Origin: a virus
Virus record (IMG/VR): IMGVR_UViG_3300037247_001031
Span: 1 to 45,223 of that record
Reading direction: 5' to 3' (one strand)
DNA length: 45,223 nt
Shown here: one piece after another, positions 1 through 45,223 of the stretch
How the letters are laid out: every line of letters begins with the position of its first letter
Position numbering within the stretch: the first letter of the stretch is position 1
Translations under genes and position numbers: made by a program
The notes under the pieces: generated by a model
What the model saw: the letters and a program-made list of their open reading frames with translations, nothing else
What the model was told of the DNA's origin: nothing
The model's database searches: none

Positions 1-127
1 CATCTTTAACTTCTTATTAGACCTGAAAGCCAGAAATAAGGGTTTGAATCTATAAAAAATCTCTGCCAATCTTTCCAAACCATACTTATCCCTGTATTTT
101 GTTAATAAACCAAGAACACTCAAATTA
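1..127. repeat. Left copy of 127-bp terminal direct repeat (circular closure)
   Basis: Bases 1-127 are identical to 45097-45223. The repeat lies inside an open reading frame that reads continuously from one copy into the other, so the contig is a circle cut at an arbitrary point. The length of 127 equals a commonly used maximum assembler k-mer, which suggests an assembly overlap rather than a packaged terminal repeat. Confidence 0.95.
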
Positions 128-816
128 TCCTTTGTCTTGATTTCCTCAATAGTAACTTTATCTTTTATAAGCAAGGTTTTATTGGTAGATTTATAAAGCA
201 TGAAACGTAAGAACTCAACAGGTTCTTCTGGGAATACACCAAAATAATCATATAAAGCAATCTTTACCTCTTTATTCTTGGTAGCGTTAATCTCTTTTTC
301 TGTTAATTCAACAAAAGTAGCGACATCAATTATATCCTGTTTTGTTTCTTCTTTTACTGCGATACCAGACTTTAATAGATTTAGCACCTTGTTCTTTAAT
401 TCTTTCTTCGTATAACCTTTAATAACAATAAGGTCTATCTTTTTAACATCTAATTTAGGGATGTTCAGCTTCTCACAAGGTATATATACAGAGTTCTCAT
501 TATATATACCCAAACTTTCAAAACCATAAGTAGTAATGTAGTGGATTATTTGTTCCAATACTAACTGCTCTATATCTGCGTCTTTGACTTTCTTCCAAGA
601 TTTATGAAAAGTTTGGTTCATCTGTTCAGCAGTCAAACCTAATTCCTCTTTAACTACCTTTATTAAATTGTCTAATTTATGCCCATAGTTATAAACTACT
701 TCTGGAGAGAAAATAAACCCACTTTTGATAGTTTGGGCTAATAACTCTTTACTTAATTTTTTCTTACCTTTATGTTCTGTTGGAACTGCCTTAAATAATC
801 TGATAGTGGATTTCAT
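1..816 (-). CDS. Large conserved-type phage protein with TerD-like C-terminal half, N-terminal part (continues at 45096)
   Basis: This is the first 272 codons of a 629-residue protein whose gene is cut by the contig ends; it reads on in frame from position 1 to 45096 and stops at 44023. The ATG at 816 follows an ideal AAAGGAG ribosome site. The N-terminal part is mostly charged and looks alpha-helical, with the short motif EEPVEFLRFMLYKSTNKTLL near residues 201-220. No family could be named with confidence. Its 5' leader (817-1077) holds four covarying hairpins. The C-terminal half (see 44023-45223) has TerD-like signatures. A Ro60-like RNA-binding role is conceivable from the helical N-terminus and the RNA array but is only inference. 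Confidence 0.85.
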   Translation of the reverse strand, partial: MKSTIRLFKAVPTEHKGKKKLSKELLAQTIKSGFIFSPEVVYNYGHKLDNLIKVVKEELGLTAEQMNQTFHKSWKKVKDADIEQLVLEQIIHYITTYGFESLGIYNENSVYIPCEKLNIPKLDVKKIDLIVIKGYTKKELKNKVLNLLKSGIAVKEETKQDIIDVATFVELTEKEINATKNKEVKIALYDYFGVFPEEPVEFLRFMLYKSTNKTLLIKDKVTIEEIKTKDNLSVLGLLTKYRDKYGLERLAEIFYRFKPLFLAFRSNKKLKM

Positions 817-834
817 CGTTTTCTCCTTTTAGTA

Positions 835-1073
835 GAGGCGAGAGGTATTCGCAAGTTGAGCCTTTCGGCTCAGAGAATTAGGAACCTCTTATGCCTCATT
901 AGTTAAGAGGCGGGGGGTATAACTTAACAGGTTGTTTATAGGAACCCCCGATGCCTCACAATTTTGGGACGGGAAGTATTTTCGCCAAAGGAATGATAGG
1001 AACTTCCTATGTCCCGATTTATTTAAAAAGGCGAGGAGTATTTTCCAATTTAGTAGGAACTCCTTATGCCCTT
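835..1073 (-). ncRNA. Array of four covarying structured hairpins (candidate ncRNA or leader)
   Basis: Four units of 48-63 nt follow each other at 835-897, 907-957, 966-1015 and 1027-1073. Each has a 5-bp outer stem (GAGGC/GCCTC twice, GGGAC/GTCCC, and GGC/GCC extended past one mismatch), a 1x3 internal loop (plus strand G opposite TAT or GAT), a 6-bp inner stem (AGAGGT/ACCTCT, GGGGGT/ACCCCC, GGAAGT/ACTTCC, AGGAGT/ACTCCT), then a fixed four-base bulge (AGGA on plus, UCCU on minus) and a variable apical stem. Inner-stem sequences differ in all four units while pairing is kept. Unit 1 carries an extra 6-bp stem that has a GAAA tetraloop when read on the minus strand. The array fills the gap between the nuclease gene stop (1078) and the start at 816, both minus strand, so minus-strand expression is the simpler reading. 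Confidence 0.8.
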
Positions 1074-1077
1074 GCAT

Positions 1078-1935
1078 TTATATATTATACCTCTGTTTAA
1101 ACTTCTCCTGCTTCTGCTTGAACATCTTGAAATATCCGTTAAGAGCATCCTCATCATAGATTATAGGTTTGGAGTAGCCCTGTGCGGTTTTGTCATTGAT
1201 AGAAATTATGATACCTTGCTTTATATCAAACTTCTTTGCGTAAGCCGACAACTGAAGCCCGTTTGAAATTTTATTCGGCGTCCTCTTAACATCAAACACA
1301 GTAAGTATAGGCAATGCTTCTTTAAACTCGGGCTTCCCGAAAAAATCAGGCTCTCCCGTATATCCTTCCAAATCGAAAAAGAAGCGCTCCCCAACTTTCA
1401 TATCTTTAACCGCATATCGCTCAAGGAAAGCAGGGAAGTCGCCTGTATCAACAGAGAGCCGTAAACCGCCCCTTGTTAATATCACTATATCTGTCCAGCA
1501 GTCCTTTAATTCCTTACCTTGAAGCCATTTGCCTGTCGTTATGTAATGTTTCACCCGTTTGTCTATGATGTTGCCCTGAGAGGCGTATTGTGTAAGGTCC
1601 TGGGGTACTGTGAAGAAGTCCGCGTCGTAACCGATTATTGAGGTTACACTCGGCAGTATGTTCCCCTCTGGAGAAATCATAAACCTTAAATCTTCTCGTT
1701 CCCGTTGTATTCTTTCTATTATGGCTTTTTGCTCGGCTTCTTTTAGCATATTGAATGATTTTTCATAAAGTTGTTTAATCCTTTTTTCTACATTTGCATC
1801 ATTAAAATCTATTTTATTTGGCTGTATATCTTCTTCGTAAGTTTCTTCCCAAGTGAAAGTAGGGCGAAGATTTTGAAAACTTCCCGTTGCGATAACTCCT
1901 GATATACTACCACCTATTCGGATTGTTCGTTTCAT
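1078..1935 (-). CDS. PD-(D/E)XK (RecB/Cas4-like) exonuclease
   Basis: A 285-residue protein from the ATG at 1935, chosen because AAGGAGG lies 6 bases upstream; an in-frame ATG at 1956 lacks a comparable site. Motif order fits the PD-(D/E)XK nuclease fold: LPSVTSIIG near residue 94, GEPD with Asp about 197, then FDVKR (Asp about 215, Lys about 217) and LQLSAYA with a conserved-type Gln at about 228. Such nucleases in phages act in recombination or DNA end processing. It lies directly upstream of the hairpin array and may be co-transcribed with it. Confidence 0.7.
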   Translation of the reverse strand: MKRTIRIGGSISGVIATGSFQNLRPTFTWEETYEEDIQPNKIDFNDANVEKRIKQLYEKSFNMLKEAEQKAIIERIQREREDLRFMISPEGNILPSVTSIIGYDADFFTVPQDLTQYASQGNIIDKRVKHYITTGKWLQGKELKDCWTDIVILTRGGLRLSVDTGDFPAFLERYAVKDMKVGERFFFDLEGYTGEPDFFGKPEFKEALPILTVFDVKRTPNKISNGLQLSAYAKKFDIKQGIIISINDKTAQGYSKPIIYDEDALNGYFKMFKQKQEKFKQRYNI

Positions 1936-1946
1936 GTTGTCCTCCT

Positions 1947-2279
1947 TTATATCCATTTACCAAAAAATGGTTTTTTTAATATATCATCTATACTTCTTTC
2001 AGTTCCCCAAATATAATAACCGTCTTCTTCATACTCCTTTTTTTTTGGGGGATTATGTAATTTAATAGGTTTTGTCTTAAAATTAAATTCTAAAAAGTGT
2101 TTTAGACTTCCTTTATAAAATATCCTTGTTTCTCCAAGACATCCAACAGGAGAAAACATTACCATAACCTTTCTTTCCATTAAAACTACACTACTATCGT
2201 CGCAACCAATTCCTTCTCCAAACCACAACTGAACATTATAATTGCCCATTTGTTTTATTTCTTCTAATTTATTTTCCAT
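1947..2279 (-). CDS. Hypothetical protein, 110 aa
   Basis: Unrecognised. Beta-rich central part with YNVQLWFGEGIGCDDSS and an acidic segment before YYIWGTER. The start at 2279 overlaps the end of the preceding gene (stop 2269) and uses a GGAGAGGAAAGAA ribosome site. Part of the tightly packed leftward early operon. Confidence 0.7.
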   Translation of the reverse strand: MENKLEEIKQMGNYNVQLWFGEGIGCDDSSVVLMERKVMVMFSPVGCLGETRIFYKGSLKHFLEFNFKTKPIKLHNPPKKKEYEEDGYYIWGTERSIDDILKKPFFGKWI

Positions 2280-3208: not shown

Positions 3209-3555
3209 TTTTTTCCTTTCATTAGGTTGTGGATTGATTGGGCTAATGTATTTACTCTCATTTTTATTTGTTTTTGTTCTACTTCATCAGGTTTTCTTGA
3301 GGCAAGTTTCCTCTCTAATTCTTCACACCTCTCAAGCACCTTAATATCGCACCACTTCATCCATTTTTTAGGATTGTTTAATATATTCTCAAGTGGCTTT
3401 TTTTCATTGACATAGTATTCTTCTAATTCTTTAAGAGCTTGGTCAACTCTCTTTTTGCATATTTTTTTACCTTTGCCCTTATTCTTGGAGTTTAATATAT
3501 CTAAAGAAGCATTAATAAATAATCTTTCTAATATCACTCTCGGGCTTTTCATCAT
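3205..3555 (-). CDS. Hypothetical basic helical protein, 116 aa
   Basis: Highly charged protein with a lysine-rich stretch (NSKNKGKGKKICKKR, about residues 23-37) and predicted helices. The start is one of two adjacent ATGs at 3555 and 3552, overlapping the M15 peptidase stop at 3552. It could bind nucleic acid; no motif proves it. Confidence 0.65.
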   Translation of the reverse strand: MMKSPRVILERLFINASLDILNSKNKGKGKKICKKRVDQALKELEEYYVNEKKPLENILNNPKKWMKWCDIKVLERCEELERKLASRKPDEVEQKQIKMRVNTLAQSIHNLMKGKK

Positions 3556-4055
3556 TCCCCCCTTATATCTATATGTAAATGCGGTTTATTAGTGTAAGTC
3601 TGCATAAAGGTAAATCCGACTTGCTTGGCGTATGGCTCAATCTCTTTAGCAGTCATGTTTCTAACTATGATATCCACCGCCTTGCCCTCTATATGCTGAC
3701 TTCGTGATACTCCGCCTACTCTTTGGTTATACGCTGGTGTTCTAAAGCCCGAAGTGATAATGATAGGTTTTCCGATTAACTCTCTTAATGCTTTGAGCTT
3801 TTCTATGAGTATCGGGTCTATCTTGATTTCTTCTATAGATAGTGGGTCTTGTTTCTGATTGAATTCTTGGATGTTGAAGTGGCTTTCTTTTTTCTTTCCA
3901 TACATAACTATTGGCATGGAAATAGCTTTGGGTCCTTCATAAGGAATTGTGTATTCTGGGTCTAAATACCAATCGTAGTCTTTGTTCTCCTCTCCCCACG
4001 CAGTGCCTATATAAAGGAACAGCACTAATATATATACTATGGCGAATTTTCTCAT
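3552..4055 (-). CDS. Secreted M15-family peptidase (endolysin-like)
   Basis: A 167-residue protein of the peptidase M15 (D-Ala-D-Ala carboxypeptidase/L-Ala-D-Glu endopeptidase) type, which cleaves peptidoglycan stem peptides. Catalytic-region motifs are visible: SGFRTPAYNQRVGG (about residues 102-115), SQHIEGKAVDI with zinc ligands His121 and Asp128, and HLHID near the C-terminus with His161. The N-terminus (MRKFAIVYILVLFLYIGTAW) is a Sec signal peptide or signal anchor, so export would be holin-independent. It is the likely endolysin but sits among early genes, far from the other membrane-lysis candidates at 31-32.5 kb. ATG at 4055 overlaps the upstream stop as ATGA. Confidence 0.85.
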   Translation of the reverse strand: MRKFAIVYILVLFLYIGTAWGEENKDYDWYLDPEYTIPYEGPKAISMPIVMYGKKKESHFNIQEFNQKQDPLSIEEIKIDPILIEKLKALRELIGKPIIITSGFRTPAYNQRVGGVSRSQHIEGKAVDIIVRNMTAKEIEPYAKQVGFTFMQTYTNKPHLHIDIRGE

Positions 4056-5582: not shown

Positions 5583-6001
5583 GTTTTATTTTTGGTCGTT
5601 TTATGAGTGTTGAGATATTCAGTAATAATTTCTTTCATTTTATCAGGATTATTTTTATGCATTAAATACCAATGAGTATTAGAACCCCCGAGTTTTTCTG
5701 CTATTTTCTCTAAAGTCATTCCATATAGACGTATATATTTGGAAATGTGTCGAAAACCTTCTAACCTATCTGTGTGAAAAAATTTTATATGGCATTTGCT
5801 ACATACTACAACTAAATTTTCACACGAATGATTAGTTTTAGTTTCATCTAAATGATGCACATATTTAGCTGATTTGTTACAAATTTCACATAATCCTTTT
5901 GTTTCCTTTAATTTTATAAGTCGATTTTTCTTTAATTCATAATGGTTTGGGTATGTAGCTATTCCACCTTTCCATTGGAAATTCTTTGAACCTTTTGTCA
6001 T
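5579..6001 (-). CDS. HNH endonuclease with C-terminal helix-turn-helix-like segment
   Basis: A 140-residue protein. Zinc knuckle CEIC (Cys38, Cys41), catalytic-type HH (His49-50), CSKC (Cys67, Cys70) and His76 form the HNH layout. A C-terminal segment TLEKIAEKLGGSNTHWYLMH resembles a DNA-binding helix-turn-helix, as in phage homing nucleases. I chose the ATG at 6001 because of GGAGGTGAG just upstream; the frame stays open to 6106. It sits between two leftward promoters, so it looks like an inserted homing gene. Confidence 0.75.
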   Translation of the reverse strand: MTKGSKNFQWKGGIATYPNHYELKKNRLIKLKETKGLCEICNKSAKYVHHLDETKTNHSCENLVVVCSKCHIKFFHTDRLEGFRHISKYIRLYGMTLEKIAEKLGGSNTHWYLMHKNNPDKMKEIITEYLNTHKTTKNKT

Positions 6002-6020
6002 AGTCTCACCTCCATTTAAA

Positions 6021-6048
6021 AGTATATCACAAAACTCAAAAAAGTCAA
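6021..6048 (-). promoter_or_regulatory. Leftward sigma70-like promoter of the divergent region
   Basis: Minus strand TTGACT (6048-6043), 16-base spacer, TATACT (6026-6021), giving a very short leader before the HNH start at 6001. Confidence 0.7.
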
Positions 6049-6084
6049 GTTTTTTTATTTTCTCAAAAAAATACTTTCCCTCTA

Positions 6085-6112
6085 TTGAATAGTGCCAAAA
6101 AATCATTATACT
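6085..6112 (+). promoter_or_regulatory. Rightward sigma70-like promoter of the divergent region
   Basis: Plus strand TTGAAT (6085-6090), 16-base spacer, TATACT (6107-6112). It would start the rightward arm (leader genes, replication initiator, terminase). Confidence 0.6.
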
Positions 6113-6135
6113 TATAGGTATATAAGGAAAACAAT

Positions 6136-6216
6136 ATGAGAGATTGCTTTAACTCTGGAAAACTTCAATCAAGTAATATATCAGTGTATAAAAGTGAAGA
6201 AGAACAGAAGAGTTAA
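6136..6216 (+). CDS. Possible leader peptide, 26 aa
   Basis: ATG at 6136 preceded by AAGGA at 7-base spacing, just below the rightward promoter. Product MRDCFNSGKLQSSNISVYKS then an acidic-basic tail. Too short to judge coding by content. Confidence 0.35.
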   Translation: MRDCFNSGKLQSSNISVYKSEEEQKS

Positions 6217-6231
6217 GGTAGTCTCTTTTTT

Positions 6232-6375
6232 ATGATTTGCCCAAAGTGCAATATAGACATAACCTCAATGGAAAATCTCACAAAACCTAAAAGATTCAAA
6301 TTTATATGTAAATGCGGAAATGATGTATCAAGACTTAAAGCAGAACAGTTAATAGAAGTGATAAGGGATAGTTGA
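6232..6375 (+). CDS. Small zinc-ribbon protein, 47 aa
   Basis: MICPKCNIDI and FICKCGND provide two CxxC-type knuckles 22 residues apart, a zinc ribbon. No clear ribosome site precedes it (T-rich stretch), so translation may be weak. It is in the leader region of the rightward operon, where such proteins often regulate transcription, though nothing here proves that. Confidence 0.55.
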   Translation: MICPKCNIDITSMENLTKPKRFKFICKCGNDVSRLKAEQLIEVIRDS

Positions 6376-6387
6376 TATTTGATAATA

Positions 6388-6467
6388 AGGGCTGGATGAG
6401 TTCATAACTCATAGCTACATGAGTGGCGAAAGGCTTAAGAGCCATGTCTTTTAAGTCCGCCAGCCCT
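6388..6467 (+). ncRNA. Structured leader RNA upstream of the replication initiator
   Basis: A perfect 8-bp closing stem AGGGCTGG (6388-6395) with CCAGCCCT (6460-6467) encloses ATGAGTT/AACTCAT (6396-6402/6406-6412) and GGCT-TAAG-AGCC (6432-6443), a three-way junction. An alternative pairing of TGGCG (6424-6428) with CGCCA (6458-6462) would break the closing stem, so two states are possible. It ends 12 bases before the ribosome site of the initiator gene. No known riboswitch class recognised. Confidence 0.6.
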
Positions 6468-6489
6468 ACTAACCTACATGGAGGATAGA

Positions 6490-7068
6490 GTGGCAAGTCC
6501 GCAGAAGGAAAATGGCTTTACCCCAATAGCCAATGAGATAGTAGAGCAGTTGGCTAAGACAAACCTAAATGCTTATGAATGGCGAACGCTTTGGGCTTTA
6601 TGGAGAAAGACTTATGGATGGCACAAGACATCAGATTATATCTCTATTAGCCAATTCCAAAGGATTACAACACTTAAAAGGCGACATCAATGCAGAGCTT
6701 TAAAGGCCTTAAAAGAGAGGAATATCGTCACCTATATAGGTGATAGTAGAGTTCGTAAGTATAGATTTCAAAAGGATTACCTGAAATGGAAAGATGTCAC
6801 CTATAAAGGTGCTATCACCTCAGATGGTACTCAGGTGTCACCTAACCAGGTGACGAAAGTGTCACCTATATGGGTGCACACAAAAGAATATAAAGAAACT
6901 ATACAAAAGAAAGAAACTTTCATTAATAAACCTTCTTTAAAGACTTTAAGAACTTTGTGGTTTACAGTAAGAAAGAAAGAGCCCTTTATAAACTTATTAA
7001 GAGAGAAAGGGATAGATGTGGCCGCCGCCAAAAAAGTGCTGGATGAAGCTAAGCTGACAATACTATGA
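6490..7068 (+). CDS. Replication initiator, lambda O-like
   Basis: About 192 residues. The N-terminal half matches the lambda replication protein O N-terminal (winged-helix) pattern: NGFTPIANEIVEQLAKTNLN, YEWRTLWALWRKTYGWHK, then ISISQFQRITTLKRR. The protein would bind iterons in its own gene and load host replication proteins. An ATG at 6478 is in frame but has no ribosome site; GGAGG at 6480-6484 lies 5 bases before GTG 6490, which I take as the start. Four palindromic iterons lie within the gene (6727-6878). No separate helicase-loader gene is recognisable downstream. The C-terminus (DVAAAKKVLDEAKLTIL) resembles that of the 53-residue gene at 7232. Confidence 0.85.
   Translation: MASPQKENGFTPIANEIVEQLAKTNLNAYEWRTLWALWRKTYGWHKTSDYISISQFQRITTLKRRHQCRALKALKERNIVTYIGDSRVRKYRFQKDYLKWKDVTYKGAITSDGTQVSPNQVTKVSPIWVHTKEYKETIQKKETFINKPSLKTLRTLWFTVRKKEPFINLLREKGIDVAAAKKVLDEAKLTIL
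6727..6878 (+). repeat. Four palindromic iterons: probable replication origin
   Basis: Imperfect palindromes of 18 bp at 6727-6744, 6796-6813, 6837-6854 and 6861-6878, consensus GTCACCTATAWRGGTGNN, with extra half sites ATCACC near 6814 and CAGGTG at 6833. As in lambda, the iterons lie inside the O-like gene, and spacing tightens downstream (69, 41, 24 bp). Confidence 0.85.
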
Positions 7069-7235
7069 ATAAGAAAAGAGTAATGAGTAAACTAATAGCA
7101 TTAGCTATAAAGAAAAATAAGGATAGCTTTTCTAAATGGATTGAAAATACGCCAAAAAAGGTATTAAGTATAGAGAAGATAAGAGAAATCACCAGTAAAA
7201 TAGATTATTCAATGGTAGAAGATAGTTTAAGATGA
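7065..7235 (+). CDS. Small basic protein, 56 aa
   Basis: MNKKRVMSKLIALAIKKNKD continues as a basic, helical peptide. ATGA overlaps with the initiator gene and the next gene indicate translational coupling. Function unknown; a replication accessory role is only positional inference. Confidence 0.6.
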   Translation: MNKKRVMSKLIALAIKKNKDSFSKWIENTPKKVLSIEKIREITSKIDYSMVEDSLR

Positions 7236-7393
7236 AACCCCTAAAAGAGATAAAAGATGAGTTATTACATACAAACGAATACAAAAACTCTCAAGAAATA
7301 TGTGCTTATGCAACAGGGGTTTTGGATATGTATAATGAGGTAAACAGAGATGTCGCCAAAGAAGTATTGGATAAAGCAAAGATAACTACATGA
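7232..7393 (+). CDS. Small hypothetical protein, 53 aa
   Basis: Helical product ending RDVAKEVLDKAKITT, which resembles the C-terminus of the O-like protein (VAAAKKVLDEAKLTIL), suggesting a duplicated tail motif. Coupled by ATGA to both neighbours. Confidence 0.6.
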   Translation: MKPLKEIKDELLHTNEYKNSQEICAYATGVLDMYNEVNRDVAKEVLDKAKITT

Positions 7394-7503
7394 GCATAGA
7401 ATGTAAACACGAATCAGATAAGAACATATATGAGAAATCCTGTAAGGAAGGGCATAGGTTCTGTTTAGAAGAGAGATGTGTAGATTATGAGGGAAAAGTA
7501 TGA
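7390..7503 (+). CDS. Tiny cysteine-rich protein, 37 aa
   Basis: Four cysteines and two histidines in MSIECKHES, KSCKEGHRFC and RCVDYEG could bind zinc. Coupled by ATGA on both sides. Confidence 0.5.
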   Translation: MSIECKHESDKNIYEKSCKEGHRFCLEERCVDYEGKV

Positions 7504-7931
7504 AGCTACCAAAAGAGATACAAGGCGATAATAAGATAAGAGATTTTGATATATGCAAGTTATATATAGATGGGCTTTCTCCAGAGCAGATAAAAGATAA
7601 ACGAAAATCAAATCTTACTATAAGGCGTATACAACAAATACTTTCAAAAAATGCGAATTTCGTAAATGAGAGAGTGGGTTGGGATAAGACTAAACGATTA
7701 CATAGGTTACAACAAATTGCTGAGAAATTACCTGATAAATTATCACAGAAGAAAGATATACTTAATGTATTAGAGCAAATCCGTAAAGAAATGGAAGGCG
7801 ATAAGCCACAAGTAGAACAACATATTCATTTTACAAACTTTAGGAGTTTTATAGAAGATGCTTACGGCAGAAAAAATAATAACTCACCCAAATCAAGAGA
7901 AAGCCAAGAAGATACAAACAGATTGGCGTGA
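7500..7931 (+). CDS. Terminase small subunit (probable)
   Basis: A 143-residue protein directly upstream of, and overlapping, the large terminase. The N-terminal half has a helix-turn-helix-like pattern (CKLYIDGLSPEQIKDKRKSN then TIRRIQQILSK), followed by charged helices. Small terminases recognise packaging sites and form rings that feed DNA to the large subunit. The call rests on position, length and the DNA-binding pattern; direct sequence recognition is weak. Confidence 0.65.
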   Translation: MKLPKEIQGDNKIRDFDICKLYIDGLSPEQIKDKRKSNLTIRRIQQILSKNANFVNERVGWDKTKRLHRLQQIAEKLPDKLSQKKDILNVLEQIRKEMEGDKPQVEQHIHFTNFRSFIEDAYGRKNNNSPKSRESQEDTNRLA

Positions 7932-9264
7932 TGACCCGATAAGTTTTGTATCGCTTTGGTTTCAATCAAAACTCTGGCAGAAACAAAGAGAAATTATGTA
8001 TGCTGTCAGAGACCATGCAAGGGTATCTGTTAAATCAGCTAATACAGTTGGAAAGAGTTTTGATGTTTCAGTAGTAGCTTTATGGTTTTTAATGAGTTAT
8101 TATCCATCCAAAGTAATAACAACAGCTCCTACATTTACACAGGTTCAAGAAATTATTTGGAAGGAAATAGCAAATTTATATCATAAATCAATTCAGCCCA
8201 TAGGTGCAGAATTATTAAAAACAGAACTGAGATTTAATGATGAATGGTTTGCTCTTGGAATAAGCACAAATGAAGTAAATCGCTTTCAAGGTTTTCATAG
8301 TCCTCACTTATTAGTTATTATAGACGAAGCACTTGGTGTAGCGCCAGAGATATGGGAAGCTATAGAAGGATTGCATCCATATCGTATATTAGCAATAGGC
8401 AATCCGCTATCAGCAGAGGGAGAATTTTATAATTGCTTCTATAGTCCACTATGGCACAACATAACAATAAACGCCCAAGAGTGTGTAGATTGGCAAAATC
8501 AACATGGGGTGATACCTGGGTTAGTAACTCAACAATGGATAGATGAACGTAAAGCTGAATGGGGAGAAAAGTCAGCATTATATCAAGCAAGAGTATTAGG
8601 CGAATTCCCCGAAGAAGGAACTGATATACTCATCCCGCTAAAATATGTAGAGCGGGCAAGGAACATTAAAATAGATGAAGAAGAAGATGCGATTAAAATA
8701 GTATCAAGCGATATAGCCACAAAGCATGGAGAAAACTATTCGGTAATGGGATATAGAGTCGGGCATACATTGGTAGATGTAGAGTATTGGCAGAATTTCC
8801 CAACGACTATGACCACTCAAAAGATAATCCATAAATACGAGATTAAGAAAGCTGATACAATCGTAGTGGATTCTGACGGAGTAGGCGAAGGCGTAGGTGA
8901 TATGATTACTGATAAACGTATCGGGGTATTAGAATTCCACGGAGGCCGCAATCAAAAAGCAATGGAACAGAATAGGTTTAAGAATCTAAGAACACAGTTC
9001 TATTGGGTAGTAGCAAAGAAATTCGAGAAAGGGATGTATTCACTTAGATACCTGCCAGAGAACGTATATCAGATACTAAAGAAACAGCTCACCTCGATTA
9101 AGTTAAAAGCACCCGATGGTTTAGGCAGGTTGCAGATAGAGACTAAAGACGATATGAGGGCAAGAGGGATTGATAGTCCTGATTTTGCGGACTGTTTTAT
9201 GATGAGTGAATACGCATATTTTTGTGGTAAAATGGGAGACATAAAAGCTTACAGTTACAGATGA
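7858..9264 (+). CDS. Terminase large subunit
   Basis: A 468-residue packaging motor. Walker A-type SANTVGKS (residues 60-67), Walker B LLVIIDE (151-157), and a C-terminal RNase H-like nuclease with acidic positions in SSDIATKHGE (Asp285), VVDSDGVGEG (Asp338/340) and DSPDFADC (Asp442/445). This length and motif order are typical of the terminase large chain. The start at 7858 overlaps the small subunit by 74 bases, with AGGAG 11 bases upstream. An HNH gene follows four bases after the stop. Confidence 0.93.
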   Translation: MLTAEKIITHPNQEKAKKIQTDWRDDPISFVSLWFQSKLWQKQREIMYAVRDHARVSVKSANTVGKSFDVSVVALWFLMSYYPSKVITTAPTFTQVQEIIWKEIANLYHKSIQPIGAELLKTELRFNDEWFALGISTNEVNRFQGFHSPHLLVIIDEALGVAPEIWEAIEGLHPYRILAIGNPLSAEGEFYNCFYSPLWHNITINAQECVDWQNQHGVIPGLVTQQWIDERKAEWGEKSALYQARVLGEFPEEGTDILIPLKYVERARNIKIDEEEDAIKIVSSDIATKHGENYSVMGYRVGHTLVDVEYWQNFPTTMTTQKIIHKYEIKKADTIVVDSDGVGEGVGDMITDKRIGVLEFHGGRNQKAMEQNRFKNLRTQFYWVVAKKFEKGMYSLRYLPENVYQILKKQLTSIKLKAPDGLGRLQIETKDDMRARGIDSPDFADCFMMSEYAYFCGKMGDIKAYSYR

Positions 9265-34841: not shown

Positions 34842-36445
34842 ATTGTTCCTTTCTGTTTATACAACATCACCCAACCGATTTCTCCTCCAAGGCCATGAAT
34901 ATCTGCAGGGCCAAATGCTTGAGCAAATGAATAATTCTTGTTGATATAATCTCTTATTCGTGGGGTCAGGAAGTTAAAATCTTTTGTATAATCATCAATT
35001 ACAAACAGAATAGCTTTTGGCTTTTCTTGTTTAATTTTATGCAATATTTTGTTTTCAAGTAGATTAAGCGCTGATTTTACTTTCTCATTTCGATTAGGTA
35101 TTTCTATTAAGAATTTAAGTTTTTTAAAGACATATTCGTTGTCTTGAAAGACATCTCGATATCTGCTTAGGAAACTAAACATGGAAAATGGAAGGCCAAA
35201 ACCGATAGTTACTATTTTGCCTTCTTTAAAATTGTCTGACAGATAAAAGGTCAATGATTCATATAGCTTTTTTTCAGCAAGCGTAAGACGTATGCCTCCG
35301 CCACGTTCAAGAGTTAAAGTTTCGGTGTATTTCTTAATCATTGAATATGGATAACGAAAGATATGCAGGAAACTAAGAGAGAATAGAAACAATGCAATCA
35401 CGACTCTGGGAAAACGTGCCTTAGTAAGATAAAGTATATATGTTATAAGGATAAAAGGAACTTGGATACTATAGGCCCTGCCGACTAAGTGAGGCACTCT
35501 CAAGCCTTCAAAAGACATACAGATAGAGAAGATGACAAATACGAGTAGGAACTGTCGAACATTCCCTTTAAATCTTTTCCTGAAACAAAATAAAACAATG
35601 GAAACTATAAAAGGTAGGAAGAAAGTGAAGTTATAAAGAATCCCGACCAATGTTTGTTTAAGATTAGTTGAGGACATAATCGCACTTATTGGCAAAAGCT
35701 CTTTCAGTTTATTAAAAAATAACAAGACTGGAGTAAATCCTGGCAGATACCCCCCATATAAGTAAGCAATCATAATTGTCGAATCCTTTGCCAAGTAAGG
35801 ATAGGTTTGAAAACCGATATTAGAGTAAAAATACATAGCCACCAAAGTTCCTACACCCATAGAGAATATAAACCAACCCTTGAATTGCTTTCGTATTAAC
35901 AGAAATAAAGAAATAGCTATAAGCGGGCAAGCCCCCATGAGCAGAGGTTTTGTTAATAGTGCCACCGCACTAAAGATGCCTGCCAAAAAAAGATTAAGGA
36001 TACTTTTACCTTCGATAAATCGGCAAACCATCAAAAGGCCTGCCAACCCTCCTAAAGTAACGAATACGTGATTATACGTGTAATATGGGATATCAAAAAA
36101 GACTATAGATAAGAATGCGGCTATCCCAGCCCACAAAGGAGGCATAATTCTTCTGGCCAATAAATAAGTAATGGGGATAACTAAAGAAGCGAGCACCATA
36201 TAACTGGCTCTTAAAACAGTCAAGGTTTCACCAAATATCTTCATAATAAACGGATAAACAAAGAATGAAAATGGCCCGTAAATCCAGGCGAAGTCCCTGT
36301 AAGGTCTCATTCCCTCTATGGCCATCAAAAAGGCGCTGGCGTCACGAGATTCTTCAAAATTTAAACCATGACGAAAGCTGATTAAATGACTGATATAATA
36401 TATGACCATGATTATAAAGATGATTAGAGTATCCCGTTTAGACAT
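34838..36445 (-). CDS. GT-C type membrane glycosyltransferase (PMT/ArnT-like)
   Basis: A 535-residue protein with many membrane spans and a soluble C-terminal part (about residues 375-530), the layout of GT-C enzymes that use polyprenyl-phosphate sugars. An acidic cluster in the first loop (NFEESRDASAF, about residues 29-39) is where GT-C enzymes have a catalytic Asp/Glu. Overlaps the radical SAM gene by TGATG, so the two are co-expressed. It would modify host lipid A, polysaccharide or protein at the periplasmic face. Confidence 0.72.
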   Translation of the reverse strand: MSKRDTLIIFIIMVIYYISHLISFRHGLNFEESRDASAFLMAIEGMRPYRDFAWIYGPFSFFVYPFIMKIFGETLTVLRASYMVLASLVIPITYLLARRIMPPLWAGIAAFLSIVFFDIPYYTYNHVFVTLGGLAGLLMVCRFIEGKSILNLFLAGIFSAVALLTKPLLMGACPLIAISLFLLIRKQFKGWFIFSMGVGTLVAMYFYSNIGFQTYPYLAKDSTIMIAYLYGGYLPGFTPVLLFFNKLKELLPISAIMSSTNLKQTLVGILYNFTFFLPFIVSIVLFCFRKRFKGNVRQFLLVFVIFSICMSFEGLRVPHLVGRAYSIQVPFILITYILYLTKARFPRVVIALFLFSLSFLHIFRYPYSMIKKYTETLTLERGGGIRLTLAEKKLYESLTFYLSDNFKEGKIVTIGFGLPFSMFSFLSRYRDVFQDNEYVFKKLKFLIEIPNRNEKVKSALNLLENKILHKIKQEKPKAILFVIDDYTKDFNFLTPRIRDYINKNYSFAQAFGPADIHGLGGEIGWVMLYKQKGTI

Positions 36446-37869
36446 CAGTATTCGACCTTCTTTCGTGCGATAGTAACTTTTAGATATTTGACAATGATAG
36501 CAGCAACATCACTGATAGTAGCGTCAAATGGATATAAGACAGACATTTTGTAAGCGTCAACTAAGGCATGGAGATATTTCAATAAAACTACTGGCATCTT
36601 ATAGAGTATTTTTCTAAATGTTAAATTCTTATATAATATGGGAGTGCTTACAAATAACGGGAATAGGTAAACGGTCTTCAAGTATTTAATCTTGTCTTCA
36701 TACGGAAAGTCTAAAATCGACATAGACGAAAAGACATTAGGTAAATTGTTATAATTCGGTTTTAAGTATCCCTCTTTAATCGCATAGTCAGTTATCTTCA
36801 AATGCGGATAAGGTGTTAGAGTGTTAGCAAGCGCTAAATATGGTTTACATCTGATATTCAGTTCAATAGTTTCTTGTATATTGGCATAAGTTTCGTGTGG
36901 TATCCCGATTAAATTGCTTGTGCGTTGCTTGATTCCATATTTTCTTAATAAATCCGCAGCATTGATGATTTGTTCTTTGGACATATTTCTTTCTAAAATC
37001 TTATTCCTTAGGAAATCGTTGCCAGTTTCAATCGCCCAAGCACTACATATACACCCGCCTTCTTTCAAGGCTTTTACCACATCCTCGCTAATTAGATTCG
37101 CCTTGATAAAACACCCAAAAGGCTTGTTTATGATTTTTCTGTATTTCTCACAGAACTCGAAGAGCCAGCGTTTATCAATGATAAATGTATCGTCCTGCAT
37201 AACGATTAGATTAGGGTTATATTTAGAATCGACTTTCTTTATTTCTTCAATAAAATAGTCGACAGATTTCTTCCTGACTACTCTGCCACAATTCTTGAAC
37301 CGTTTATTGAATATATGATTATAGCAATAAGTGCATTGATAAGGACATCCTCTGCCACTTAAAAACATAGCATATTTCTTCTTTTTTAAATAAGGTTCTT
37401 CGTTATATACAATATCTCGGGAAGGAAAAGGCATCTTATCTAAGTCAATCAGACGATTATACTGAACTTTAGAGTTATTGATAATCGTATTGTTGGCAAA
37501 GATTCCGTCTGATTGAAGATACTGTGCCAATGCCTCTTCCCCTTCTCCGACACAGATTGCGTCAATAGTGGTGTTAGAAAAAACCTCTGGAGCGAAGATT
37601 GCTCCTGGTCCTCCGATTATAGATTTTATACCAATGATATTCTTTTGAAATTTGTCAAACTCTATGTATATGGAACAGTTATAACTAAAAGTGCTGTATC
37701 CTAATAAATCGGGCTTATTGGTTTTCAATCGCTTTATTACGTTTTTAAACTGGCTTTCGCTTATATAATTTACTTTGAAACCTTTTGACTTTAGGTAAGA
37801 AGAAAGACAATAGAACTGATGCCTATCGTAATAATGCTGTTCAAAGGAAATAAATGTGATTGATTTCAT
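36445..37869 (-). CDS. B12-binding-type radical SAM protein
   Basis: A 474-residue protein. An N-terminal cobalamin-binding-like domain (about 1-120, with LLGYSTFSYN and IIGGPGAIFAPE; no DxHxxG motif seen) is followed by the radical SAM cluster motif CPYQCTYC (Cys175, Cys179, Cys182), and the TIM-barrel part reaches about residue 400. This family methylates or rearranges lipid, isoprenoid and secondary-metabolite substrates in bacteria. Coupled with a GT-C transferase, it suggests envelope modification. Rare in phages. Confidence 0.8.
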   Translation of the reverse strand: MKSITFISFEQHYYDRHQFYCLSSYLKSKGFKVNYISESQFKNVIKRLKTNKPDLLGYSTFSYNCSIYIEFDKFQKNIIGIKSIIGGPGAIFAPEVFSNTTIDAICVGEGEEALAQYLQSDGIFANNTIINNSKVQYNRLIDLDKMPFPSRDIVYNEEPYLKKKKYAMFLSGRGCPYQCTYCYNHIFNKRFKNCGRVVRKKSVDYFIEEIKKVDSKYNPNLIVMQDDTFIIDKRWLFEFCEKYRKIINKPFGCFIKANLISEDVVKALKEGGCICSAWAIETGNDFLRNKILERNMSKEQIINAADLLRKYGIKQRTSNLIGIPHETYANIQETIELNIRCKPYLALANTLTPYPHLKITDYAIKEGYLKPNYNNLPNVFSSMSILDFPYEDKIKYLKTVYLFPLFVSTPILYKNLTFRKILYKMPVVLLKYLHALVDAYKMSVLYPFDATISDVAAIIVKYLKVTIARKKVEY

Positions 37870-39741: not shown

Positions 39742-40100
39742 ATTAACTTCTTCTCTTTCAGATATACCCACATCTTGCCTAATGCTTCAGATAAAGACCA
39801 ATCACAAAGTCTTTTATCGTTATCTGTGCCTTCATTATAAGCACAGGCATATCTTTTATCTCCTTTTCCAAATCTACATATTTGAACATCAGGCAACTTC
39901 TCCCCTATCTCTATTGCGTCGGGAGCCAAGTAAATAGCCCAATGTTTTTCTGGATACAAATATAAATCAGCTTCATTTACAAGAATTTTAATGTCTTCGT
40001 GTTTGTAATCTACCCAATATCTCTCCACCTCAAATTTCCACCCTAACTTTTTCATACGCTTGGCTAAATCTAAACTGACTACTTTATCTTTTGGGTTCAT
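39738..40100 (-). CDS. Conserved-type phage protein, 120 aa
   Basis: Contains SLDLAKRMKKLGWKFEVERY and WAIYLAPDAIEIGEKLPD, a layout that recurs in phage early proteins of unknown function. ATGA overlaps with both neighbours. Confidence 0.65.
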   Translation of the reverse strand: MNPKDKVVSLDLAKRMKKLGWKFEVERYWVDYKHEDIKILVNEADLYLYPEKHWAIYLAPDAIEIGEKLPDVQICRFGKGDKRYACAYNEGTDNDKRLCDWSLSEALGKMWVYLKEKKLI

Positions 40101-40981
40101 AAGAACATATCCTTATAGCTTTTATTCTCTGGTCTATTTATAAACTGTTCCCAAGTCATTCCTCTAAAAATATGAAATTGATTAACCCATCTTGCAAGAG
40201 CAGTATGTCTAATATCCTTATTCTTTTTATAATAAAAGCGTTGTAAATACGCATTTTGATTTAGATTTCTTATAATATTGAGTCTATATAAATCCTCTTC
40301 AAAAGTAGTATTAAATCCAACAATTACATAAAAACAAGATTTTTTAATACCATTTTCTACTAACAATTTTATACCTTTTTTTACATTTTTTTCATCAGAT
40401 AGATTGTCAAAAGCAAAATGATAATCATAATGTTTTATAGACGAGAGAATTTTAACATTATCTTTATTTAGTAGTCTAATATCTAATCCATTCTCTCGAA
40501 GTTTTAACTTCTCTTTCTTAATTTGTCCCCATATTTTTTCAAAGTGTCTTGATAATCCCATAATATTATTATCTAATAATTCTATCTCTGGAGATTTTCC
40601 ATCCCAAATATCATATATATCACCTTCTATCCGTATCTTCCCTTCTTTCTTAGGCACTATACAGAATTGACAATTTCTGATACAACCTCTTGTAGTAAAG
40701 CCTATGTTTATTCGTGGTTTTACTTTTTCTATTTCTGAAGGCAATCTTTTAGTTAAACTATATCCACTACCACCTATTTCAGCATTAGGAAATTGTTTAG
40801 CTTTATCTTTATTCCAATCAAATATAATAGATATATAAGTTTTATCTGCCCAAGATTGAAACAATTCGTTATTCCATATAACTTTGTCATTTCTATCAAG
40901 ATGATATTTCTCTATTTTCTTAAGAGCAAGGTTAGGAATTTTACTATCAATATCCATTATGAGTATCTTTTTCTTACTCAT
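40097..40981 (-). CDS. Phage radical SAM protein
   Basis: A 294-residue protein with the CX3CX2C iron-sulfur motif in TRGCIRNCQFC (Cys100, Cys104, Cys107). The N-terminus MSKKKILIMDIDSKIPNLAL has the short Rossmann-like opening found in phage-type radical SAM proteins. Target unknown: nucleotide, tRNA or protein modification are possible. ATGA-coupled to the next gene. Confidence 0.75.
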   Translation of the reverse strand: MSKKKILIMDIDSKIPNLALKKIEKYHLDRNDKVIWNNELFQSWADKTYISIIFDWNKDKAKQFPNAEIGGSGYSLTKRLPSEIEKVKPRINIGFTTRGCIRNCQFCIVPKKEGKIRIEGDIYDIWDGKSPEIELLDNNIMGLSRHFEKIWGQIKKEKLKLRENGLDIRLLNKDNVKILSSIKHYDYHFAFDNLSDEKNVKKGIKLLVENGIKKSCFYVIVGFNTTFEEDLYRLNIIRNLNQNAYLQRFYYKKNKDIRHTALARWVNQFHIFRGMTWEQFINRPENKSYKDMFL

Positions 40982-44022: not shown

Positions 44023-45223
44023 TCATTGCTTTTTTAGTAGTGATAATATAGTATCTTTTTCTAATTTCTCTGGAGATAAGTTAATATCACATTTATCTTC
44101 ACTTGTCTTTTGCATTCCTGCCTTTAACAGAATGTCGTTTAAATCAATAGTATTCTGGTAAAATGTAGTGAGATAATTCAATGCGTGTTTTGTATAAGGG
44201 TTGCCATAGGAAGTAATAGAACACCCAAGATTTACTTCAGTAAAGTAAAATTTGCAATTATCTTCGGTAGTTGCCAATAATCCCAATATTCTCTGTTTTT
44301 GATTGATAACTGATTTAGCGATACAAAGGATATTATTAGGATTAACCATATAATCTTTCCCAAAATCCTTTACCAATTCTTTAGCTACTAATATTTTAAA
44401 AGGAACTTCTACATCTTCTTCAAAATTGTAATAATTAACCATTAAGAGAAAGGTATTTTCTTTTTGTTTTTTTACATAGAATACTTCTGTTGCTCCTCTT
44501 CCTTTAGGTGCGTCTGTTATATCCCCAGAGAATAGAATACCCCTATCCTCACTCCTATATAAATCATCCCACCCTATTTTTTTATTTCCATTGAGTAGAG
44601 ATAAATCCAAGTCAATCCTATGTCCATTTATATTCTCCCAATGAACACCAAACACAATATCTTTCGGCACAGAAACATAGGTCCCAGAGGGGAAATACCC
44701 TGTGAACTGCTTTTCTGTAGCAGGCAAGGAATATTTAATGTAATCTGGGAGATAGACTTTCTTCCCTTTAACATTTGGCTTTATGTCATTGACTATTGAG
44801 TTAAGAACAATGTCTAAAAATGCTTTTGCTTTTCTATGGTTATTAAATCCAAAATCAGTAGCATACCCTTTACCATTTCTTATCTTATATAGAATGCTCT
44901 CTGTGTCGTTTGTTCTGAATTTAAGAGCATAAGCAAGGCGTATCTTCCTAAAGACATTTACCTTTTTCAGTTCTTCTTTCAATTTTGCTTCAGGAATAGA
45001 CTTCCTTTGTTTAATCTTCGCTGTTATGTTGTTAAGAAAGTCCTCTGGCATAGGTTTATGATGTCTATAAGCTAATTTTCTTATCTTATTTATAATCATC
45101 TTTAACTTCTTATTAGACCTGAAAGCCAGAAATAAGGGTTTGAATCTATAAAAAATCTCTGCCAATCTTTCCAAACCATACTTATCCCTGTATTTTGTTA
45201 ATAAACCAAGAACACTCAAATTA
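44023..45223 (-). CDS. Large phage protein with TerD-like signature, C-terminal part (continues from position 1)
   Basis: C-terminal part of the 629-residue protein that starts at 816; the reading frame enters from the repeat (the copy of 1-127), so the apparent TTG start at 45219 is an artefact of the cut. Residues about 410-530 carry HRIDLDLSLL (431-440) and LFSGDITDAPKGRGATEVFY (460-479), resembling the conserved Asp-rich and GD(N)-type motifs of TerD calcium-binding beta sandwiches. The preceding 180 residues are basic helices. The match to TerD is by eye only. Confidence 0.8.
   Translation of the reverse strand, partial: NLSVLGLLTKYRDKYGLERLAEIFYRFKPLFLAFRSNKKLKMIINKIRKLAYRHHKPMPEDFLNNITAKIKQRKSIPEAKLKEELKKVNVFRKIRLAYALKFRTNDTESILYKIRNGKGYATDFGFNNHRKAKAFLDIVLNSIVNDIKPNVKGKKVYLPDYIKYSLPATEKQFTGYFPSGTYVSVPKDIVFGVHWENINGHRIDLDLSLLNGNKKIGWDDLYRSEDRGILFSGDITDAPKGRGATEVFYVKKQKENTFLLMVNYYNFEEDVEVPFKILVAKELVKDFGKDYMVNPNNILCIAKSVINQKQRILGLLATTEDNCKFYFTEVNLGCSITSYGNPYTKHALNYLTTFYQNTIDLNDILLKAGMQKTSEDKCDINLSPEKLEKDTILSLLKKQ
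45097..45223. repeat. Right copy of 127-bp terminal direct repeat
   Basis: Exact copy of bases 1-127. Removing one copy gives a 45,096-bp circle in which the minus-strand gene starting at 816 runs on to its stop at 44023. Confidence 0.95.

Follow-up and report, generated by a model that had tools for sequence, protein, structure and literature searches.

A gene across the terminal repeat and the hairpins upstream of it

The stretch analysed here (the window) is the whole 45,223 nucleotides of IMG/VR virus record IMGVR_UViG_3300037247_001031, which carries a 127-bp direct terminal repeat (left copy 1-127, right copy 45097-45223). A single minus-strand frame spans this repeat, running from 816 to 1 and continuing from 45096 to 44023; it encodes a 629-residue protein of which residues 1-272 lie at 1-816 and residues 273-629, together with the stop codon, at 44023-45096. 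An earlier note on this DNA had read the two parts as one junction-spanning protein, and the homologues, found from the protein alone, are indeed contiguous at that point (for example, 5995-7974 in locus L008). Directly upstream of the gene, also on the minus strand, are four bulged hairpins (835-1072), with an AAGGAG ribosome-binding site (823-828, minus strand) between this array and the ATG at 816. Beyond the array lies a 292-residue ORF of no known family (1078-1956, minus strand), whose stop codon stands 5 nt before the first hairpin, and the gap of about 260 bp between this stop codon and the start codon of the 629-residue gene is occupied by the four units. Because no promoter stands out in this gap and no terminator was found in it, the array is likely to be co-transcribed with both flanking genes.

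All four units were recognized by a covariance model (R1, built from 56 units) and by their folds: unit 1 at 1028-1072 (E 3.9e-13; outer stem, AUA/C bulge, 6-bp inner stem and UUCCU), unit 2 at 966-1015 (E 1.3e-13), unit 3 at 907-957 (E 1.6e-11) and unit 4 at 835-897 (E 4.7e-11), each on the minus strand. Run over the whole window, the model returned exactly these four strong units (E 5e-11 to 1e-13), the next match having an E value of 0.055. Each unit folds into an outer stem, an AUA bulge on the 5' side facing one C, an inner stem of six pairs and a loop that opens with UCCUA, and the array as a whole folds at -80.7 kcal/mol, compared with -55.5 +/- 4.8 for shuffled sequences (z -5.3), in agreement with the structured array on the gene strand that the earlier note had described. 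The four units carry simple loops or hairpins only, without T-arms or clear anticodon arms: unit 4 has an extra GAGCC-GAAA-GGCUC hairpin in its loop, and the loop of unit 3 (AAC-CUGUUAA-GUU) resembles an Asn anticodon loop on a 3-bp stem, a likeness that is suggestive only. Searches of the whole window for tRNAs and for Rfam families at gathering score found nothing, and RtcB is absent from it. Elsewhere in the window we noted two radical SAM proteins (36445-37869 and 40097-40981), one with a B12-binding domain, and a Peptidase M15 family protein (3552-4055) that is probably an endolysin.

A basic helical region joined to a TerD-like domain

The 629-residue protein is strongly basic over residues 1-380 (pI 9.7, net charge +28) and neutral over residues 381-629, and it contains both an HRIDLDLS and an FSGDITDAP motif. 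Neither Pfam nor PHROGs recognized it; NCBIfam gave nothing more than weak matches to its relatives, L008 included, and the family profile retrieved nothing when the full PDB library was searched by sequence. The fold was modelled with AlphaFold2 on the L008 homologue (contiguous in its own contig and sharing 62% identity with the window protein) together with 62 relatives, giving a model with a pLDDT of 92 and a pTM of 0.90. Residues 440-610 of this model form a TerD fold (VIA Z 12.1 to TerD structure 3ibz, 2.9 A over 144 residues, with the match covering residues 442-598 and the first unrelated row at Z 4.7), which maps to about residues 412-582 of the window protein (44167-44679, minus strand). 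D461, D463, D492 and E504 are invariant over the 63 sequences and are located in the acidic motifs, DLD and SGD, through which TerD binds calcium. A separate model of the helical N-terminal region reached a pLDDT of 78. Foldseek and VIA searches with the whole model and with the N-terminal part gave TerD plus weak helical-repeat rows only, Ro60 being absent among the matches listed, and for the N-terminal part the AlphaFold model and fold searches revealed no RNA-binding fold and no convincing solved relative. The basic, helical N-terminal part and the TerD-like C-terminal half that the earlier note had read from the letters are thus both present; of the structural comparison that it proposed, with Ro60 and TerD, the TerD part held for the L008 homologue, and its N-terminal part has no clear PDB match.

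Relatives were gathered with the 629-residue protein and then with a six-sequence alignment, that is, with protein only and no use of RNA. The homologues number over 150 and occur in phages, Bacteroidota, Proteobacteria, Bacillota and archaeal bins (at least 78 IMG/VR loci and at least 80 genome loci). Named phage carriers are the Synechococcus phages S-CBWM1 and S-CRM01 and the gut phage Phass-1; cellular carriers include Chryseobacterium (one complete chromosome), Winogradskyella, Marinicella, Selenomonadaceae, Clostridia, and archaeal and desulfobacterial bins. In a quick tree the well-supported branches require no fewer than nine switches of label between virus and cell (some cellular bins may hold phage contigs), from which we infer movement of the gene between phages and cells. 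The entire helical and TerD arrangement is also seen in three distant phage proteins, one of them named 'putative tellurium resistant like protein'. In one homologue (L009), the gene is broken after codon 341 by an insert (7027-7595) with an HNH-type ORF (7034-7651); the insert is intron- or intein-like, with no Rfam group I or II intron at gathering score, and the homologue match in L069 is similarly lengthened.

Two kinds of described protein come closest. TerD tellurite-resistance and stress proteins share the C-terminal fold and the conserved acidic motifs IDLDLS and SGDITDA, but in the present family TerD sits behind a 400-residue basic helical domain and has its linkage with RNA instead of with a ter operon. 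Among named families, the one closest in sequence is NF041916 (MXAN_6230/SCO0854 family RING domain-containing protein), which has a homologous TerD-like C-terminal domain and, as judged from the 746-residue relative L197, part of the helical region; the present family differs in being without the RING finger and in scoring far below the cut-off of 600 bits, with 22.8 bits for L008 and 26.4 bits for L107, over the TerD region only. The RNA element was not found in two checked genomes with NF041916-like proteins. L197 and the product of 1522-3774 in L013 (LR745208) are themselves large RING-related TerD proteins of the MXAN_6230/SCO0854 type, one of them on a 485-kb uncultured phage genome. In the limited literature covered, no paper names or describes the protein family, and with the reserve that an earlier mention may exist, the protein-RNA system looks undescribed.

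The RNA element and its tRNA-like cargo

Across the relatives, the element has an outer stem and an inner one of 6 bp, with an A[UAC]A/C bulge between them, together with UUCCU; it shows the recurrent consensus A[UAC]A-R-NNN-G-U-UCCU ... A-C-NNN-Y-C, in which the R-Y and NNN pairs covary. Pair counts on the alignment (A3) are biased, the units having been selected for pairing, and the unbiased tests are those of strand, shuffling and linkage. A strict motif (an A-N-A bulge and a single C between an inner stem of six pairs and an outer stem of at least three, with TTCC) occurs 355 times on the gene strand, 5 times on the reverse strand and 3 times in shuffles of the 163 sequences (162 fetched loci and the window array). 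Linkage was evaluated on the 151 loci that have a long gene and at least 400 bases upstream of it: the element is present on the gene strand in at least 149, with a strict unit within 1.1 kb upstream in 134 and with relaxed, permuted, downstream or slightly more distant units in 15 more (most of them backed by the covariance model or a tRNA-embedded form), and it was not found in only two, L082 and L089, both contigs under 20 kb. Opposite-strand control windows contained it in 0 of 453 cases. The covariance model gave 229 matches on 1.03 Mb of loci, all on the gene strand, and in whole genomes of several megabases nearly all of its significant matches adjoin the gene. In phages as in cells, the protein family and a conserved RNA element are inherited as a pair. 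The earlier note had named conserved synteny of gene and array as a check and had set against its own idea homologues occurring widely without an array; such homologues were looked for, with the result just given.

Arrays hold one to seven units, and most of the unit loops are short and simple, with a minority that hold pieces of tRNA well above chance. T-arm hairpins are found in 14 of 289 distinct loops (0.2 in shuffles), and hairpins like anticodon stem-loops in 46 of the 289 (3.6 in shuffles), a count that includes the T-arms and many near-identical Chryseobacterium loops. Among 105 non-redundant loops, the most enriched hairpin loop size is 7 nt (45 versus 14.8), the top 7-mers include GGTTCGA and TAGCTCA, and 6 loops contain CTTTTAA (CUUUUAA), the anticodon loop of tRNA-Lys, compared with 0.9 expected; the stems that carry it differ among S-CRM01, Phass-1, a Clostridia bin, a Bacteroidia bin and Chryseobacterium. 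A search for copies of host tRNA-Lys, with the pattern CTTTTAA..GTTCRA, was uninformative because control matches were as many as true ones.

Larger parts of tRNA are joined to the element in two ways. Some units contain tRNA bodies: there is a complete tRNA-Met inside a unit of L109, and in L011, L053, L078 and L109 the tRNA bodies are in permuted order (T-arm, acceptor hairpin, D-arm). The Rfam YrlA model matches the modules of L011, L053, L109 and L117 with 34-37 bits (E 2e-4 to 2e-3), below its gathering score of 69 bits, and the match falls in the tRNA-like part of the units, not in the Ro stem. Conversely, L103, L107 and L137 have tRNA genes in normal order whose anticodon loop is replaced by a circularly permuted element (first the 3' half of the inner stem, then the outer stem, capped by a small loop, and after it the bulge, the 5' half of the inner stem and UUCCU), and in L107 three such element-bearing tRNA-like genes stand in a row. 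A scan found 16 permuted units with a downstream T-arm inside tRNA bodies, in phages and bacteria, 14 of them with seven of seven acceptor pairs; the remaining permuted matches are mostly junctions of neighbouring units. At least 14 element-bearing tRNA genes score 49-67 bits as tRNA in Rfam (gathering score 29), with an insert of about 40-55 bases. Minimum-energy folds give the drawn shape for the simple units and for L015, which folds as a cloverleaf whose anticodon arm is extended and carries the element, and do not give it for L100, L107, L137 and L011, where the evidence is the tRNA covariance model and the acceptor pairing. In the relatives, then, the element is fused to tRNA-like cargo. 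The strongest argument for selection of the shape itself (a tRNA body on one side and a bulged stem on the other) is that two opposite permutations keep one drawn shape.

These observations bear on three rival explanations of the array. The array could be a cis-acting leader, in which hairpins in the mRNA of the protein would be bound, by the protein itself or by a tRNA-related signal, with autoregulation or attenuation as the result; on the same strand, the unit closest to the gene typically stops about 18 nt short of the start codon, and the stretch between array and gene in the window is free of any terminator found, as such a leader would have it. We nevertheless regard this as unlikely, since in some genomes the units are only downstream or distant (for example, L064 and L039) and many lie within complete tRNA-like genes with acceptor stems, which a leader would not need. 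In Phass-1 the units are at 92.6-93.1 kb and 105.7-107.2 kb and the gene at 94.3-96.3 kb, with none directly upstream, and S-CBWM1 has one extra unit in a tRNA cluster, at 13.1 kb, away from the gene. Phass-1 also has, at 3270-3360 of its locus (L012), a promoter-like stretch followed by a region of about 90 nt that an 8-bp stem closes (GAGAGATG/CATCTCTC); it lies directly ahead of a tRNA-Ser and the homologue gene and is possibly a separate structured RNA.

A type III toxin-antitoxin system, in which RNA repeats inhibit the endoribonuclease encoded after them, would likewise present structured repeats in tandem shortly before a gene and on its strand. Here the units are not near-identical, covary, include tRNA bodies and vary in number, and the protein exceeds 600 residues and has no Pfam toxin or ToxN-like match, so that we rejected this explanation as very improbable. 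The units are inverted repeats in phage genomes and might also be viewed as DNA elements (replication, packaging or integration sites) and not as RNA. This explanation, the least credible of those considered, was rejected on the strand bias with the gene (355 versus 5), the G-U pairs present in the stems and the fusion with tRNA genes, and the units also stand beside the gene in bacterial chromosomes. The pairing of gene and array as a putative RNP system, by comparison, is well supported by conservation across the loci.

Relation to Ro60 and Y RNAs

The earlier note had suggested an RNP of the Ro60 type while finding no evident TROVE match. By sequence we too found none: PF05731 (TROVE) has no match at E 0.001 in the window and none in Pfam scans of the window protein and its relatives, and hhalign comparison of the family alignment (A2) with a TROVE alignment (A5) gave a probability of 0.1 (E 0.57). 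One of the 20 genomes or records searched (window included) encodes a TROVE protein, Chryseobacterium G010, as a separate protein. A canonical Ro60 was rejected on these sequence grounds, and TerD stands in the place of vWA. A highly diverged true member of the Ro60 family with its Y RNAs would account for the similar RNA design (a tRNA-like module on a protein-binding stem), for the YrlA matches, for the RtcB neighbours described below and for the helical N-terminal domain; yet with PF05731 absent from the window and 19 of the 20 genomes searched, the low hhalign probability, a C-terminal TerD and a YrlA match confined to the tRNA-like part, we consider it a distinctly improbable account. The RNP suggestion of the earlier note therefore survives in the pairing of gene and array and in the Ro/Y RNA analogy (tRNA mimics, YrlA matches, RtcB), and Ro60 membership is not supported: the system resembles Ro/Y RNA and appears separate from it.

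The resemblance to Ro60 and YrlA (RF02553; the Salmonella rsr-yrlBA-rtcBA operon) is one of design, with a protein gene beside small RNAs and a tRNA-like module on a separate stem; in relatives, though not in the four units of the window, the module of T-arm, acceptor and D-arm has its anticodon arm replaced by another stem, as in YrlA. Both systems have RtcB nearby in some bacteria and occur in phages. The differences extend from the protein (not TROVE by sequence and ending in TerD, not vWA) to the RNA: the stem element, with its A[UAC]A/C bulge and UUCCU, is unlike the YrlA stem, the units score below the Rfam gathering score, and the family RNAs form arrays that also include non-permuted tRNA genes, anticodon-stem-loop cargo and plain hairpins. 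It is possible that the non-permuted tRNA genes with the adaptor in their anticodon loop represent the form from which Y-like RNAs arise.

The gene neighbourhood likewise points toward tRNA. In S-CBWM1 and S-CRM01 the gene lies inside tRNA gene clusters, as it often does in cyanophage, IMG/VR and Winogradskyella copies. In one Winogradskyella chromosome (L117, 2000-4698) about 20 tandem tRNA genes are immediately followed by two element-bearing tRNA genes, four plain units and the gene. The RNA ligase RtcB is adjacent in 47 of the 80 genome loci listed, mostly Bacteroidota, a count dominated by Chryseobacterium (gene order: WYL regulator, RtcB, array, gene) and so not one of independent cases; it is near 2 of 82 viral loci. 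Other places with RtcB in the vicinity of the gene are Flavobacteriaceae, Desulfobacterales (L101), L093, L103 and two phages. Beside the gene we saw no recurrent anticodon nuclease, and PADLOC on the protein and its neighbours gave weak or generic ATPase, HEAT and REase_II matches only, with no consistent defence partner.

We therefore favour, at a probability of roughly 55%, a reading in which gene and array make one RNP that displays tRNA mimics, most likely for tRNA protection or repair. The operon transcript would be cut into units, the basic helical part of the protein would bind the element (bulged stem and UUCCU), and the RNP would act in trans, presenting the mimics to tRNA-acting enzymes as decoys for anticodon nucleases or, where RtcB is encoded, as docking sites for RtcB repair; the TerD domain would perhaps tune the RNP to stress or calcium. 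The analogous Salmonella rsr-yrlBA-rtcBA operon responds to anticodon-cleaved tRNA, for which the authors raise the possibility of competitive inhibition of the nuclease by YrlA (PMC7790460); rescue of phages from PrrC by phage tRNA-Lys is known (PMC11555353). Phage tRNAs that counter anticodon nucleases (PrrC, PARIS AriB, retron-Eco7) share the CUUUUAA loops and the setting of phage tRNA clusters with the present units, which differ in not being functional tRNAs, their anticodon arm being replaced, extended or on another stem. For the phage of the window, the cargo function is taken from relatives because its own four units carry simple loops or hairpins only; this, with no nuclease partner consistently nearby, marks the weakest steps of the tRNA-protection reading.

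More tentatively, and with slightly less than even confidence, we propose that the family is a widespread RNP independent of Ro, in which a helical-TerD protein is combined with a modular RNA adaptor whose tRNA-derived cargo is interchangeable (whole tRNAs, permuted bodies or anticodon stem-loops), and which is exchanged by phages and bacteria and may disarm or repair attack on tRNA.

The prevailing view of Y RNAs is that they imitate tRNA, and a second, apparently unrelated protein family seems to reach the same RNA design. The arrays offer many natural variants of tRNA cargo, including Lys-type anticodon loops, and because these occur in phages and in cultivable bacteria such as Chryseobacterium, the purpose of tRNA mimicry becomes directly testable. 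To the conflict between phages and hosts that centres on tRNA, the system would contribute an unannotated RNA family and a protein family with over 150 loci.
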